From: Kordiimonas sp.
Lineage (GTDB): Bacteria; Pseudomonadota; Alphaproteobacteria; Sphingomonadales; Emcibacteraceae
Direction of reading: 5' to 3'
Length of the DNA stretch: 64,000 nt
Assembly: GCA_002700365.1 (NCBI GenBank)
Contig: PADB01000010.1
Span: 792,504 to 856,503 of the forward strand
Shown here: in pieces, positions 16,501 to 24,730 of the stretch
Position numbering within the stretch: position 1 is the stretch's first letter
Layout: every line of letters starts with the position of its first letter
Notes under the pieces: model-generated
What the model was told of the DNA's origin: nothing
Database searches by the model: none
The model's input: only the letters and a program-made list of their open reading frames with translations
Program-made: the position numbers and the translations under genes

Positions 16501-17553
16501 ATGCAGAATATACTTACCGCCCCTTTACGTGGCATTGGACGCCTCATCACAGCATCGCTGAAAAATTTTGATCCGGGAAAAATGCTCGACTCTGAGCTGG
16601 TCAAGGCCGAAGCTCGTAAACCGGTGGGCACCCAGCGTGTGCCCGCAGGCGAAGGCGCGACAAAACGCCGCCCTTTTACCAGCGGCGTCTATTGGCCGCA
16701 GACAGGGTTTAGCAAGCTAAGCTTCAAACAATTCACAGGGTTACTGCACACCGGCGTACCCATGATGGTCCGCCTGCGCCTAAGCCGCCGCTATTACAGC
16801 AAGACCATTGTCCCGACACAGCACATTGCCACTGACGCCATGTTCGAAGAACTGGAAAAGCTTGCCCGTGAAATGGGGGCGGTCGATATTGGCTATATTA
16901 GCAACATTGACCCCAATCTGGTGTTTAAGGGAAAAGAACTGCCTCACCCTCACGCTATCGTCTTTACCGTGGAAATGGATAAAGATGAAATGAAAACCGC
17001 CCCTTCTTTCGAAAGCTTTGTGGAGGTCAAAAAAGCCTACCTTAAGTTAGGAAAAACCTCACAGGTCTTGACGCAATACCTCCGTGACAAGGGCTTTGCC
17101 GCCTATCCTGGTACAAACCTTGGCGGTATTTCCGATTATACCGCTGTTGCCGAGCAAGCCGGCCTTGGGGCCATTGGCTATCATGGCCTCCTGATCGGCC
17201 CCGACGGTGGGGCACGTCTGCGCATCAATACCATTTATACGAATATTGCAAATTTGCCTGCCCGTAAAAATCCGCACCTCTGGATCCGGGATTTTTGCGC
17301 TGAATGTCTGAATTGTGTACGCAAATGCCCGCCGCAAGCCATCTATTCAAAACCCCGGCCGAAATCAAATGGCGGTGCCGGCATAGAATGCATTTCTTAC
17401 CAAAGCTGCCTGCAGTATTTCTCTGAAAACTTCAGCTGCGCGATTTGCGTGAAAGTCTGTCCGTTCAGCGTTTCCGGTTATGACAAAATTAAAAACGGCT
17501 TTGAACAATCAAAACAACGCAACCTGACAGCCACAAAGCAGCCCGCCGCTTAG
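16501..17553 (+). CDS. Reductive dehalogenase (RdhA)-like iron-sulfur protein
   Basis: A 350-residue protein starting at the ATG at 16501, with AAGGA 8 bases upstream. The C-terminal part has two [4Fe-4S] motifs: C266-x2-C-x2-C-x3-CP, then C303, C313-x2-C-x3-CP. Spacing and flanks (YFSENFSCAICVKVCPF) match reductive dehalogenases and the related epoxyqueuosine reductases. Upstream it has the family's GGISDYTAVAEQAGLGAIGYHG and GGARLRINTIYTNI segments. There is no Tat signal, so it should be cytoplasmic, like the aerobic RdhA enzymes. Corrinoid binding cannot be proved from sequence alone. It lies in an operon with TetR-1. Its N-terminal half aligns without gaps to the RdhA-FprA locus at 18.8-21.3 kb. 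Confidence 0.8.
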   Translation: MQNILTAPLRGIGRLITASLKNFDPGKMLDSELVKAEARKPVGTQRVPAGEGATKRRPFTSGVYWPQTGFSKLSFKQFTGLLHTGVPMMVRLRLSRRYYSKTIVPTQHIATDAMFEELEKLAREMGAVDIGYISNIDPNLVFKGKELPHPHAIVFTVEMDKDEMKTAPSFESFVEVKKAYLKLGKTSQVLTQYLRDKGFAAYPGTNLGGISDYTAVAEQAGLGAIGYHGLLIGPDGGARLRINTIYTNIANLPARKNPHLWIRDFCAECLNCVRKCPPQAIYSKPRPKSNGGAGIECISYQSCLQYFSENFSCAICVKVCPFSVSGYDKIKNGFEQSKQRNLTATKQPAA

Positions 17554-17719: not shown

Positions 17720-18376
17720 ATGTTTGAACCCGAATATATCCCCGAAGAATCGATCGACAATCTTTCAGAAAAGCATAAAGAAGAAGGCCGGGACCTCATC
17801 TTAGAAATAGCCCGCCGTCTTTTTGCAAAGCGCGGTTATGCTGCCACCTCAACCCGCCTGATCGCTGAAGAGGCCGGAGTCTCATCTGGCCTTATTTTTC
17901 ATCACTTCAAAACCAAAAGCGAACTACTACAAGCCATTTTGCTGTCTGAGAATGAAATCGTCAAAGCCCTGACAGCAGCCCTGCAAGAACCTGACCTCAC
18001 GGTTGAAGGCTTGCTGCAACTCTGCCGCAATTTCTTTATTGACCTTCTCAAACCTGAAAGTTCCCTGGCGCAGCATCTGTTAATTCGCGTTGAAGCCCGC
18101 AGCATCACCCCAAGCATTGATGCCTTCGCCGCCTCTATCTCTGAACAGTTCCCTGTTATTATTGCAAAATTCCTGCAAAACCGAATAGAGGCCGGGGAAT
18201 TGCCCGATGGCCTTGATACACTCACAGCCGCCCGCGCCTTACAAAGTGCTGCGGTCTGCACACTACTAAGTAACCTTCATCATACCGAAGGGTGGGAAGA
18301 TAAGGTCATTCCGCTTATTGATGCCCATCTCGCCTATTGGCAACAGAGCCTTTATGCATCAAGCTTAAGCTCTTAA
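17720..18376 (+). CDS. TetR-family regulator 2
   Basis: A 218-residue TetR/AcrR regulator. The N-terminal extension (FEPEYIPEESIDNLSEKHKEE) is acidic and precedes the HTH: DLILEIARRLFAKRGYAATS, TRLIAEEAGVSSGLIFHHFK and TKSELLQAI. The ATG at 17720 is preferred over the GTG at 17714 because TTGAGGAG lies 5 bases before it. The ligand domain ends in the same type of motif as TetR-1 (LIDAHLAYWQQSL). Its promoter contains the same operator type. It is transcribed toward the ferredoxin gene and separated from it by a strong hairpin. The target is likely the divergent ferredoxin / RdhA-FprA promoter, its own promoter, or both. Confidence 0.92.
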   Translation: MFEPEYIPEESIDNLSEKHKEEGRDLILEIARRLFAKRGYAATSTRLIAEEAGVSSGLIFHHFKTKSELLQAILLSENEIVKALTAALQEPDLTVEGLLQLCRNFFIDLLKPESSLAQHLLIRVEARSITPSIDAFAASISEQFPVIIAKFLQNRIEAGELPDGLDTLTAARALQSAAVCTLLSNLHHTEGWEDKVIPLIDAHLAYWQQSLYASSLSS

Positions 18377-18485: not shown

Positions 18486-18704
18486 TCACGCAGACAGTTT
18501 AAAATCCGCCCATTCTTCAGGCACCTTATGGGCCGGATAAATCGCGCTCACAGGACAGGCCGCTATGCACGCCCCACAATCCACGCAGGCCTTCGCATCG
18601 ATGACATACTGGTCCGGCTGTTCGAAGATACAATTCACCGGACACACCTGTGCGCAGGCACTGTCTTTCGTCCCAATACACGGTTGGCATATGACATGGG
18701 TCAT
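18486..18704 (-). CDS. 7Fe-type ferredoxin (FdxA/FdxC-like)
   Basis: A 72-residue soluble ferredoxin. The first cluster region, CIGTKDSACAQVCPVNC, has the C-x7-C-x3-CP pattern of a [3Fe-4S] site and resembles actinobacterial 7Fe ferredoxins. The second, CVDCGACIAACPVSAIY, is a classical [4Fe-4S] motif. The C-terminal VPEEWADF also resembles those proteins. In actinobacteria such ferredoxins are reduced by FprA-type reductases, or fused to them (FprB). Here it is transcribed divergently from a gene whose C-terminal half is FprA-like, from one shared operator. A role as electron carrier to the RdhA-like or Rieske protein is inferred. Confidence 0.92.
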   Translation of the reverse strand: MTHVICQPCIGTKDSACAQVCPVNCIFEQPDQYVIDAKACVDCGACIAACPVSAIYPAHKVPEEWADFKLSA

Positions 18705-18826: not shown

Positions 18827-18961
18827 ATGCCTAACAACTTGAAAAAAGCGCTGAAAAAATTTGGTCGGGCCTTACTCACCCCGATGGAGAATTTTGACCC
18901 CGGCGCCAATCTGGACGCGATGATCGCCGGTGCAGAACCCAAAACACCGCCTGGCACCTAA
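18827..18961 (+). pseudogene. 5' fragment of the RdhA-FprA gene, cut by an in-frame TAA
   Basis: The ATG at 18827 opens 44 codons (MPNNLKKALKKFGRAL ... ENFDPGANLD ... PPGT) ending at TAA 18959-18961. They align without a gap to residues 1-44 of the RdhA-like protein at 16501 (MQNIL ... GR ... NFDPG ... LD ... GT). At the position of the TAA the paralogue has Gln45 (CAG). The same frame stays open after the stop and remains similar (R-x-P-A, then RR, F, TG, QF) for 38 codons up to the next usable start at 19076. This is either a nonsense mutation, a sequencing error, or a stop that is read through. Confidence 0.7.
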
Positions 18962-19075
18962 CGTCTTCCTGCCAGCCCCACGGCATCACCACGCCGTCTA
19001 TTCGCCGGGGGACCGACAATCTTCAATACAGGAATCGCCGATATAACCTGGGACCAATTTAAAAGGCTGCCGCCA

Positions 19076-21331
19076 GTGGTCTTTCCCATGCAGCAAAAAA
19101 TGAACCGCAGCAAAAAATATTATAAGAAGACCTTTAAGCCGACACAGGATATTGCCGACCCTGCCCTTTTTGATGAAATTGAGGCTATGGCCAAAGAAAT
19201 GGGCGCCGTTGATTTTGGTTATGTCAGCAACATTGACCCCGGACTGGTGTTTAAAGGAAAAGAGCTTCCCCATCCCCATGCCATTGTTTTTTCCGTTGAA
19301 ATGGAAAAAGAAGAAATGGGTAAGGCGCCGTCTTTCGACACATTTCTGGAAGTCAGCCGCGGCTATACTAATCTGGGGCGTATTTCACAAGCAATCGCCG
19401 ATTTGTTGCGCTCACGCGGGTTTGCGGCCTATCCCGGCATGAACCTTGGCGGGAGTTCTGATTACCCTCCCATTGCCGAGGCGGCCGGACTTGGGGCCGT
19501 AGGATATCACGGTCTGCTCATTACACCTGGCGGCGGCGCGCGCCTGCGTATAAACACCATTTACACCAATATTGCAAATCTGCCAGAACGGGAAAACCCT
19601 CATCTATGGATCCGGGATTTTTGTGCAAGTTGCCGGAATTGCGTGCGTAGCTGTCCGCCTGCCGCCATTCACCATGACCCACAACCAAAACCCAATGGGG
19701 CTATGGAATGCATAGACGTGGTCCCGTGTCGTGATTATTTTTCTGCAAATTGGGGATGTGCCGTTTGCGTGAAAGTCTGCCCGTTCAGCACAGCAGGCTA
19801 TGACCTCGTTAAACAAGGCTTTGACGCTGCCCAAAATGCACAACCTTTGCCACAACAGGATATTGCGGCCGAACAGAGCGATGTTGCCGCACTTAAGAAT
19901 GGGCCCGACAGCCCAGCCAACCTCCCCACCCAACCCGTTGCATCCGCACCAGCCATACAGATTGCTGTAATTGGTGCAGGTGCAGCGGGCGCATATGTCA
20001 CCCAAAGCCTGTTGCAAAAGCACACCACGGCCAACATAGATATCATCGAACGCCTGCCTTTCCCGCATGGGCTTGTGCGTTACGGGGTTGCGCCGGATCA
20101 TCCTATGGTAAAGACAAAATCATGGGCTTTCGACCGCATCATGGATGATGAAAGGGTCAGATTCTTTGGCAATGTCGCATTGGACCGGGACATTACCCGA
20201 CAGGATCTCAAAGATCATTATGACATCATTGTTTATGCCAATGGGGCTCCCGGCAATCGCAAACTCGGGATTCCTGGCGAAGACAAAGCTAACGTCATCG
20301 CCGCCGCAGATTTGGTGGCGTGGTACAATAGCCACCCTGACTACGTGGATTTCACACCGCCTCTTGATGGTCGCCATGCCACATTAATTGGCCATGGAAA
20401 CGTGGCATTGGATGTCGCCCGCATGATGCTGGCCCCGGAAGACCACCTGAAATCTACAGATATTCGCAGTGAAGCCTTGAAGCATTTAATCCAGTCTTCC
20501 ATCACAGAAATTGATATGGTCAGCCGCCGCGGCCCCTCGCAATCAAGCTTTACACCGCGGGAATTGGCCGACCTTATCGAGCTTCCCGGCGTCCGCGTAC
20601 TTGTCGACCCCAAAGACCTGGAACGCGACCAGCCTGATAACATTACCGACCCATTAGAAGCCGCCCGCAGACAACGTCAGTTAGACATTTTCCAGGACCT
20701 GGCTACTGCGGAAAATCATGCTGTCTCCGCCAGCGACAAGATTGTCCGCCTGCGCTTCTTTGAACGTCCCGCAAAAATTGACGGGGGCGAAAAGGTCACG
20801 GCCATTACGATGGAAGCCATGCAATTAAAAGAAACGCATCCCGGACAATATAGCCCTGTCCCCACGGGGGAAATGCGCCAACAAAAAACAGACTTGGTCA
20901 TGCGGGCCATTGGTTATCATGCCGTACCGGTCGAAGGGCTGACCTTTGATGAAAAACGGCAGATTCTCCAAAATGATGACGGTCGTCTTTTAGATAAGAA
21001 TGGTAATCCACTTCCCGGCGAATATATATCCGGCTGGGCACGCCGCGGACCGAAAGGTATTGTGGGCACCAATAAAATTGATGCCGAACAAATTGTCGAG
21101 CATATCATTGACGACTTGCCAACACTTCCTGTGCGCAATGGCGAAGACAGTGGCCGAAATATTACCGACCTCAGCGCATTATTAAGTAGCAAGGGCGTAT
21201 CCTATATCTCCAAAGCAGACTGGACAAAACTAGCCAAGGCAGAAAGACACCGCGGCAGTATGCGTCATAAATATGCGGAGAAGTTTGAAACGATGGAAGA
21301 AGCCCTAACCTATTTATCTAAAACGGGGTGA
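19076..21331 (+). CDS. RdhA-like iron-sulfur domain fused to FprA-type NADPH-ferredoxin reductase
   Basis: 751 residues from the GTG at 19076; the ATGs at 19088 and 19100 are alternatives, and none has a good ribosome-binding site. Residues ~1-265 are RdhA-like, with [4Fe-4S] motifs C183/C186/C189/C193-P and C218/C228/C231/C235-P. An Ala/Pro/Gln-rich linker (about 265-293) follows. Residues ~294-750 are an adrenodoxin-reductase/FprA module: FAD motif GAGAAG at 300-305, GLVRYGVAPDHP, NADPH motif GHGNVALDVAR near 440, and C-terminal SGWARRGPKGIVGTNKID. The design suggests NADPH to FAD to Fe-S transfer in one chain. The true gene probably began at 18827 in the same frame (834 codons plus stop) but is broken by TAA at 18959. 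Confidence 0.85.
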   Translation: MVFPMQQKMNRSKKYYKKTFKPTQDIADPALFDEIEAMAKEMGAVDFGYVSNIDPGLVFKGKELPHPHAIVFSVEMEKEEMGKAPSFDTFLEVSRGYTNLGRISQAIADLLRSRGFAAYPGMNLGGSSDYPPIAEAAGLGAVGYHGLLITPGGGARLRINTIYTNIANLPERENPHLWIRDFCASCRNCVRSCPPAAIHHDPQPKPNGAMECIDVVPCRDYFSANWGCAVCVKVCPFSTAGYDLVKQGFDAAQNAQPLPQQDIAAEQSDVAALKNGPDSPANLPTQPVASAPAIQIAVIGAGAAGAYVTQSLLQKHTTANIDIIERLPFPHGLVRYGVAPDHPMVKTKSWAFDRIMDDERVRFFGNVALDRDITRQDLKDHYDIIVYANGAPGNRKLGIPGEDKANVIAAADLVAWYNSHPDYVDFTPPLDGRHATLIGHGNVALDVARMMLAPEDHLKSTDIRSEALKHLIQSSITEIDMVSRRGPSQSSFTPRELADLIELPGVRVLVDPKDLERDQPDNITDPLEAARRQRQLDIFQDLATAENHAVSASDKIVRLRFFERPAKIDGGEKVTAITMEAMQLKETHPGQYSPVPTGEMRQQKTDLVMRAIGYHAVPVEGLTFDEKRQILQNDDGRLLDKNGNPLPGEYISGWARRGPKGIVGTNKIDAEQIVEHIIDDLPTLPVRNGEDSGRNITDLSALLSSKGVSYISKADWTKLAKAERHRGSMRHKYAEKFETMEEALTYLSKTG

Positions 21332-21436: not shown

Positions 21437-22057
21437 ATGGCAACTGCCCGGCAAAACCGCCAGGACCAAACAATCGAAAGCCGCGATGCCATTTTGGAAG
21501 CAGCAAGCCGCTTATTCGCGGAAAAGGGATTTGCCTCCACCTCTACCCGGGCAATTGCCAAGGCCGCAAATGTTTCCACTGGTCTTGTCTTTCATTATTA
21601 TCCGACAAAACTGGACTTATTCCGCGAAGTGGCCATTGCCGAAAACACACTTTTTGCAAAAACGCTTGAGCTATTGCAATCCAGCCCATCACTTAGCGCA
21701 CACCAATTTGCGCAGCATTTCCAGCAACTTTTCATCGAACTGCTGGCCCCCGGCAATATATCAGCCCGCCTCTTCTGGATCAGCCTGACCGGATCCGGGG
21801 CCTCCAGTGAAATGGACGAATTATTTACCGAAGCAAATAATAATCTGATTACCTCAATTACCTCTTTCCTGGATACCCAAAAAGAGCAAGGGGAATTGGC
21901 CGCATCCGCAGATACCAATGCCGCCGCCTGGAATTTTCTGGGGGGATTTTTATGGATCTTTATGTCTTTGCGTTTTCAGGAAGAAAAATGGATTGAAAAC
22001 GCCACACCCCTAACAGATCGTCACGTTGCCTTTTGGTATAATAGTATACGGGCCTAA
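21437..22057 (+). CDS. TetR-family regulator 3
   Basis: A 206-residue TetR/AcrR regulator, paralogous to TetR-1 and TetR-2. HTH: DAILEAASRLFAEKGFASTS, TRAIAKAANVSTGLVFHYYP and TKLDLFREV. The C-terminal domain carries the shared FLGGFLWIFMSL and the end motif HVAFWYNSI. AAGGA lies upstream of the ATG. It follows the RdhA-FprA gene by 105 bases on the same strand, so it may be the distal gene of that transcript or have its own promoter. It converges on the Rieske oxygenase gene. Same size as TetR-1, consistent with duplication of a TetR-RdhA unit. Confidence 0.92.
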   Translation: MATARQNRQDQTIESRDAILEAASRLFAEKGFASTSTRAIAKAANVSTGLVFHYYPTKLDLFREVAIAENTLFAKTLELLQSSPSLSAHQFAQHFQQLFIELLAPGNISARLFWISLTGSGASSEMDELFTEANNNLITSITSFLDTQKEQGELAASADTNAAAWNFLGGFLWIFMSLRFQEEKWIENATPLTDRHVAFWYNSIRA

Positions 22058-23469: not shown

Positions 23470-23970
23470 ATGCCCGCCCCGTCGAAAATACAGCACCGCC
23501 GCAGCACCCGAGAAGTCAGAGAAACCATTCTGAAAGAAGCCACACGTCTTTTTTTGGAAAAAGGGTATGTCGGCGCAAGCATGAATGAACTGACAGAGCG
23601 TGTCGGGGGCTCTAAAAGCACTTTATACAAACAATTCGGTAACAAAGAGGCATTGTTCACTGCGGTGCTGAACTATGTCTTAGACCAGCATATGCAGCAA
23701 TTGAATAAAGTGGCACTCAATGGCTTGCGGGCTGCCGATAAAAAAACGCCTAACGGCGAAGCCCCGGTCCGCAAGCGTCTGGAAGAAATCGGCATACTCA
23801 TGCTGACCACAGTCTCCTCGGAGGCGGCGGTGGGCATGTGGCGTCTCCTGTATAGTGAAGGACCACACCACCCTGAAATTGCCAATACATTCGTTCAAAA
23901 CGGACCGGAAAAATCCCTCGCCAAGGCAGCCGGCATCATTGACAATGCCTTGGCAAAGGGTCCCGGGTAA
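23470..23970 (+). CDS. TetR-family regulator 4, 3' end apparently truncated
   Basis: 166 residues, shorter than the usual ~190-210. HTH: RETILKEATRLFLEKGYVGAS, MNELTERVGGSKSTLYKQF and GNKEALFTAV, of the AefR-like branch, different from TetR-1 to TetR-3. The C-terminal ligand domain is normal through MWRLLYSEGPHHPEIANTFVQNGPEKSLA and then runs into residues that make no family sense (AGIIDNALAKGPG). From about 23920 on, this DNA encodes, on the other strand, the conserved part of the RdhA-like remnant. A deletion joining the 3' parts of two convergent genes explains this. Whether the shortened repressor still folds is open. Confidence 0.8.
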   Translation: MPAPSKIQHRRSTREVRETILKEATRLFLEKGYVGASMNELTERVGGSKSTLYKQFGNKEALFTAVLNYVLDQHMQQLNKVALNGLRAADKKTPNGEAPVRKRLEEIGILMLTTVSSEAAVGMWRLLYSEGPHHPEIANTFVQNGPEKSLAKAAGIIDNALAKGPG

Positions 23971-24566
23971 TCCACCGCAGGATAGCCAAGGCCACGCACA
24001 AAGTTACCCAGCTTTGCGCTGGCCACAGAGGCCCGTTCATATTGTTTCGCCACTTCAACAGCGGCCCGATTATTTCCCGAATTCGGCACGGACGGGGCAT
24101 GTTTTATTTCTTCATAGTCATGGGCTACACCCACGACAATGACGTATTTTTCTTTAATTTCAAACCCCTCATAGACCATATCCGGCGTTAGTGCCGCAAC
24201 ACCAACAATGTCAGCATCATTGTTTAAGGCAAATTCTTTCACTGCGGCGGTAAATTCTGCCGCGGTTTTATCCACCTTTTCCGTTGCCACATCCACCGGT
24301 GGTGGATTTGTATCTGGTTCCGGCTTGCCCGGCTCATACCGAAAGGCCTTCATAATAGGGCCTGAATCTTCTGGCCCAAAAAAATTCTGAAATACGTAAC
24401 CTTGTAAAACTCCAAACGGATGCAGGTCCGGCGTATGCCAGAAAAACGGCGATGGCCGCCGCATTTCTTCTTCACCCAAACCATTTACATCATTACCAGA
24501 GATCCCTTCCGGCATTACCTTCCAGAATTCCTCTTCCGGCTCCCATGTCTCAATCTTTCTTGGCAT
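23895..24566 (-). pseudogene. Third RdhA-like protein, C-terminal Fe-S half deleted
   Basis: 223 residues from the chosen ATG at 24566 (an in-frame start 24 bases upstream is less likely). The N-terminal part (WEPEEEFWKVMPEG ... FFWHTPDLHPFG) and the core (EFALNNDADIVGVAALTPDMVYEG, YVIVVGVAHDYEEIKHAPS, ASAKLGNFVRGLGYPAVDYPGP) match the first half of RdhA/QueG-like proteins. The reading frame ends at MMPAALARDFSGPF, just where the family would continue with the AGLGE-x-G segment and the two [4Fe-4S] motifs. All cluster Cys are missing. Its 3' end overlaps TetR-4 by 76 bases. Probably non-functional. Confidence 0.72.
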
Positions 24567-24730
24567 TCTTTGAACTCCCGGTCCACGCAAAGCGATCCCC
24601 TTGATTATACGGCCAGGAGATCACTTTCGGAACCTTATCTTATTATGAGATAGTGTTATGTCAGCATTTTTGATTGTTTGATAAGAATTACACATTTGCG
24701 CAAGAAGTACAAACCGAGAAACACTGACAT

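Follow-up and report, generated by a model that had tools for sequence, protein, structure and literature searches.

Within the 64,000-nucleotide stretch of Kordiimonas sp. DNA analysed here (the window), a gene that probably encodes a self-sufficient reductive-dehalogenase-like enzyme, with activity and cofactors predicted from sequence, is interrupted by a TAA codon near its 5' end. We consider it likely that a recent, single nonsense mutation at codon 45 inactivates or truncates this gene. The reading frame starts at ATG 18827 and extends over 834 codons to a stop at 21329-21331 on the forward strand, with the TAA at 18959-18961 as its sole internal stop.

An in-frame TAA codon in the RdhA-FprA gene

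The initial annotation had described a frame that is open from 18827 to 21331 except for the TAA, with 44 residues before it and 38 codons after it aligning without gaps to a paralogue. Both the frame check and the alignment confirmed this. The paralogue is an intact, unfused RdhA-like protein of 350 amino acids (16501-17553, forward strand) that shares 58% identity over the RdhA part and 65% in the core, and the TAA lies opposite its Gln45. Identical residues number 18 of 44 before the stop, 13 of 38 after it and 164 of 251 in the core. Codons 1-44 (18827-18958, forward strand) have a strong coding score (0.366), retain the family leader residue D30 and are preceded by a Shine-Dalgarno (SD) site of -4.9 kcal/mol at 18827, compared with a median of -4.7 kcal/mol for 28 window genes. 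Codons 46-83 (18962-19075, forward strand) keep P55, R56 and the invariant F59; their codon score is low (-0.054), and they contain none of the usual in-frame start codons. A frameshift in place of the stop, or a leader encoded in another frame, was rejected: scores in the two remaining forward frames are lower (-0.213 and -0.096) and the alignment to the paralogue is gap-free.

The annotation had also given the lost codon as CAA (Gln), which exceeds the evidence because the stop column is variable among homologues: threonine occurs 14 times, aspartate four times, asparagine three times, glutamine, glutamate and alanine twice each, and arginine, glycine, histidine and proline once each. Judged from these aligned sequences, the Gln45 column is not a conserved site of the family, and the ancestral residue at codon 45 is not fixed as glutamine.

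The stop lies within a conserved leader

Residues D30, P55, R56 and F59 of the leader are conserved in 29-31 of 31 homologues, and the RdhA-FprA gene keeps all four, on both sides of the stop. Because the leader on either side fits the family-wide leader, the match to the paralogue is not due to chance. In complete homologues, ~65-95 residues precede the position equivalent to 19076; none of them, fusions and ~25 unfused homologues alike, starts at that position, and no aligned homologue has a stop in the codon-45 column. In an AlphaFold model of the read-through protein, for which the TAA was replaced by glutamine for folding only, residues 31-80 have pLDDT values of ~74-93. Since conserved leader residues flank the stop and AlphaFold folds the leader confidently, the stop interrupts genuine protein-coding sequence, in a region that intact homologues translate, as would be expected of a nonsense-interrupted gene.

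The earlier proposal that the break falls within a genuine leader is thus upheld: relatives share this leader, and none was found that begins near 19076 with an unconserved upstream region. The upstream leader of the homologues, together with weak ribosome-binding sites, rules out the 19076 region as the true gene start. We also rejected a long-standing relaxation of the leader, whose residual relative to core identity (-0.062) is like that of the paralogue (-0.048).

Domain architecture of the predicted enzyme

The RdhA-like core (19076-19846, forward strand) contains two [4Fe-4S] cysteine motifs and aligns with PceA and NpRdhA. It matches TIGR02486 with E=1.2e-18 and 68 bits, under the curated cut-off of 160, and is thus homologous to the family while scoring below its cut-off. 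The motif residues C266, C269, C272, C276, C301, C311, C314 and C318 are invariant in 10 aligned homologues. An alignment to 4uqu via the paralogue identifies Y180, N206 and R241 (read-through numbering) as the equivalents of Tyr246, Asn272 and Arg305 of PceA, which we take to be active-site residues. Y180 and R241 are invariant in the same 10 homologues; the Asn272 position is kept in the window proteins and varies in Chloroflexota.

The C-terminal FAD-NADPH domain (19958-21313, forward strand) matches FprA (1lqt, E=2e-83) and adrenodoxin reductase (1cjc, E=5.3e-83) in sequence and fold. The 1lqt match spans residues 295-733 of the 751-residue open reading frame, and the whole reductase domain is covered, with ~37% identity to FprA and adrenodoxin reductase; a phthalate dioxygenase reductase-like C-terminal domain, with FMN and [2Fe-2S], is absent. 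Profile, structure-sequence and fold matches therefore agree with the initial assignment of an RdhA-like and an FprA/adrenodoxin-reductase domain. The intact gene would join a corrinoid/[4Fe-4S] domain to an NADPH reductase in one chain, in which electrons would pass from NADPH via FAD and [4Fe-4S] to cobalamin.

TetR-family genes flank the RdhA-FprA gene on either side (17720-18376, forward strand, PF00440 E=3.6e-19; 21437-22057, forward strand, PF00440 E=1.8e-17). Upstream and divergently oriented lies a gene for a 72-residue FdxA-like ferredoxin (18486-18704, reverse strand), a possible electron carrier.

Uninterrupted fusions and paralogues

A scan of named genomes yielded 43 loci, which include uninterrupted fusions and ~25 unfused homologues. 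The uninterrupted protein that the initial annotation had proposed to seek in relatives is present in another genome from the same order (G207; 826 residues, 44% identity over the window open reading frame), in Jannaschia donghaensis (L036; 823 residues), in an Erythrobacter metagenome-assembled genome (MAG) (L039; up to 870 residues) and in DTSAM18 (L042; 785 residues). Altogether, the fusion of an RdhA-like domain to an FprA-type NADPH reductase was found at no fewer than seven loci (at least 7), mostly in Alphaproteobacteria. The unfused homologues, of ~330-375 residues and with the same leader, come mostly from Chloroflexota and also from Deinococcota and Myxococcota. In the Erythrobacter MAG, a TetR gene (L039:5108-5746) lies directly upstream of the fusion, as it does in the window. 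A plasmid search returned no place covering 80% of the query and mostly reductase-type matches, class-level and phylum-level searches returned the organism's own genome as the sole match, and searches of viral contigs and a single-protein scan of genome contigs gave nothing useful.

Two further fusions are damaged. In a Phyllobacteriaceae MAG (L066:1-160), the leader is replaced by the apparent end of an IS3-like transposase, and in a Rhodobacteraceae genome (L043:7600-8100), the FprA domain is frameshifted inside a short repeat, with the remainder continuing in another frame. Loss of RdhA-FprA genes thus seems to recur, with the reservation that both are uncultured assemblies that could hold errors.

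Within the Kordiimonas genome, 17 stretches match the query, most of which are RdhA-like genes. An RdhA-like remnant (23895-24590, reverse strand) ends after ~210 residues without the Fe-S part; it converges on, and runs into, a TetR-like gene (23470-23970, forward strand) that is apparently shortened too, and the arrangement looks like a deletion junction. A second group of ~13 RdhA-like paralogues, of 340-360 residues, is organized largely in tandem arrays (L021, L022, L023 and L024; contigs C3, C11 and C1 of G000). Many of these begin with MGxFxG, and a TonB-receptor-like gene adjoins the array in L023. Their number is unusually high for one small genome of 2.4 Mb.

Age and origin of the stop

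The terminal branch of the RdhA-FprA gene (0.28) is shorter than that of the intact paralogue (0.52), which argues against a long period of relaxation. The remaining frame is free of decay, with no further stop and no acceleration, in line with the earlier statement that the downstream domains are intact up to 21329-21331. In a simulation of neutral substitution, the chance of observing zero further stops was 0.54 at 1% divergence, 0.27 at 2% and 0.03 at 5%. Because there is no decay, the branch is short and the leader is no more diverged relative to the core than that of the paralogue, the stop is either recent or absent from the living organism.

The initial annotation had offered a recent mutation, a sequencing error or programmed read-through. 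We favour the mutation and find read-through unsupported, with an error in the sequence remaining as the main rival. If codon 45 has recently become nonsense, translation from ATG 18827 would be expected to end as a 44-residue peptide, with little or no dehalogenase made; at most, a low-level product could arise from 19076 or 19088, lacking the leader residues that complete homologues carry. We counted the damage to other RdhA-like copies (L066, L043 and the remnant at 23895-24590) in favour of a nonsense mutation. Against it, an assembly error would yield an identical sequence, a shortened protein might still work and the FprA domain could arise by internal initiation. A sequencing or assembly error, in which case codon 45 would be a sense codon and the enzyme would be whole in the living organism, is unlikely but carries the most weight among the alternatives. 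The perfectly preserved, unaccelerated remainder of the frame would fit such an error, as would the isolation of the event: a codon-score scan of ~198 kb of the genome revealed no clear second gene split by the same type of internal stop, most other hits, judged collectively, resembling normal gene ends. However, the contigs reach 912 kb, the genome is rated 100% complete, and isolated substitution errors are less usual than indel errors in modern assemblies.

A functional leaderless protein initiated at GTG 19076 or ATG 19088, with the stop tolerated, appears improbable. Although the frame is open for 751 codons from 19076 and the segment 18962-19075 scores low for coding, the SD energies at the two starts (-2.6 and -2.7 kcal/mol, respectively) are at random background, being equalled at 33-35% of random sites. 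This bears out the earlier view that these starts lack good ribosome-binding sites. Moreover, complete homologues do not begin there, and the leader that would be dispensed with holds the family-invariant F59 and belongs to the modelled fold. We regard programmed or efficient read-through of the TAA, giving the full-length fusion, as very improbable, even though the sequence remains under coding constraint before and after the stop. None of its marks was found, be it conservation of the stop in relatives, a suppressor tRNA or an RNA structure for recoding: homologues lack a stop in this column, no ochre-suppressor anticodon occurs among the 36 tRNA genes found in the genome, and the RNA downstream of the TAA folds no better than shuffled sequences (z=0.50). 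In addition, matches to RF1 and a second, RF2-like factor are present, and UAA as a rule permits less read-through than the other stop codons. Slightly more improbable still is efficient read-through by some unrecognised means that would supply full-length dehalogenase at a controlled level.

Comparison with known reductive dehalogenases

Self-sufficient catabolic RdhA-PDOR enzymes include BhbA of Comamonas sp. 7D-2 and JtRdhA of Jhaorihella thermophila, and the one-chain reductive dehalogenases described bear a phthalate-dioxygenase-reductase-like domain (PMC10463259). Like these, the window protein has a two-[4Fe-4S] RdhA part, without a visible Tat signal, and on the same polypeptide an NAD(P)H reductase domain at the C-terminus, and both types occur in marine Alphaproteobacteria (PMC10463259). 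In contrast, the reductase of the window protein is FprA/adrenodoxin-reductase-like, with FAD and without a [2Fe-2S] domain, and its gene is interrupted. Its RdhA part (~340 residues) also seems not long enough to accommodate the duplicated cobalamin-binding domain that NpRdhA and JtRdhA possess. The catalytic core can be aligned with that of respiratory PceA from Sulfurospirillum multivorans (4uqu), including matching positions of the active-site Tyr, Asn and Arg, whereas PceA differs in its Tat signal, longer N-terminus and lack of a fused reductase. Similarly, the entire reductase domain resembles FprA of Mycobacterium tuberculosis and adrenodoxin reductase, but is fused behind an RdhA-like domain.

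We found no description of an RdhA-FprA architecture in the open-access papers searched. The stop is most likely an ordinary gene loss, and the architecture of the enzyme deserves more attention than the stop codon: RdhA-FprA enzymes would be soluble dehalogenases made of one chain, and their wiring would differ from that of the RdhA-PDOR enzymes in the literature.
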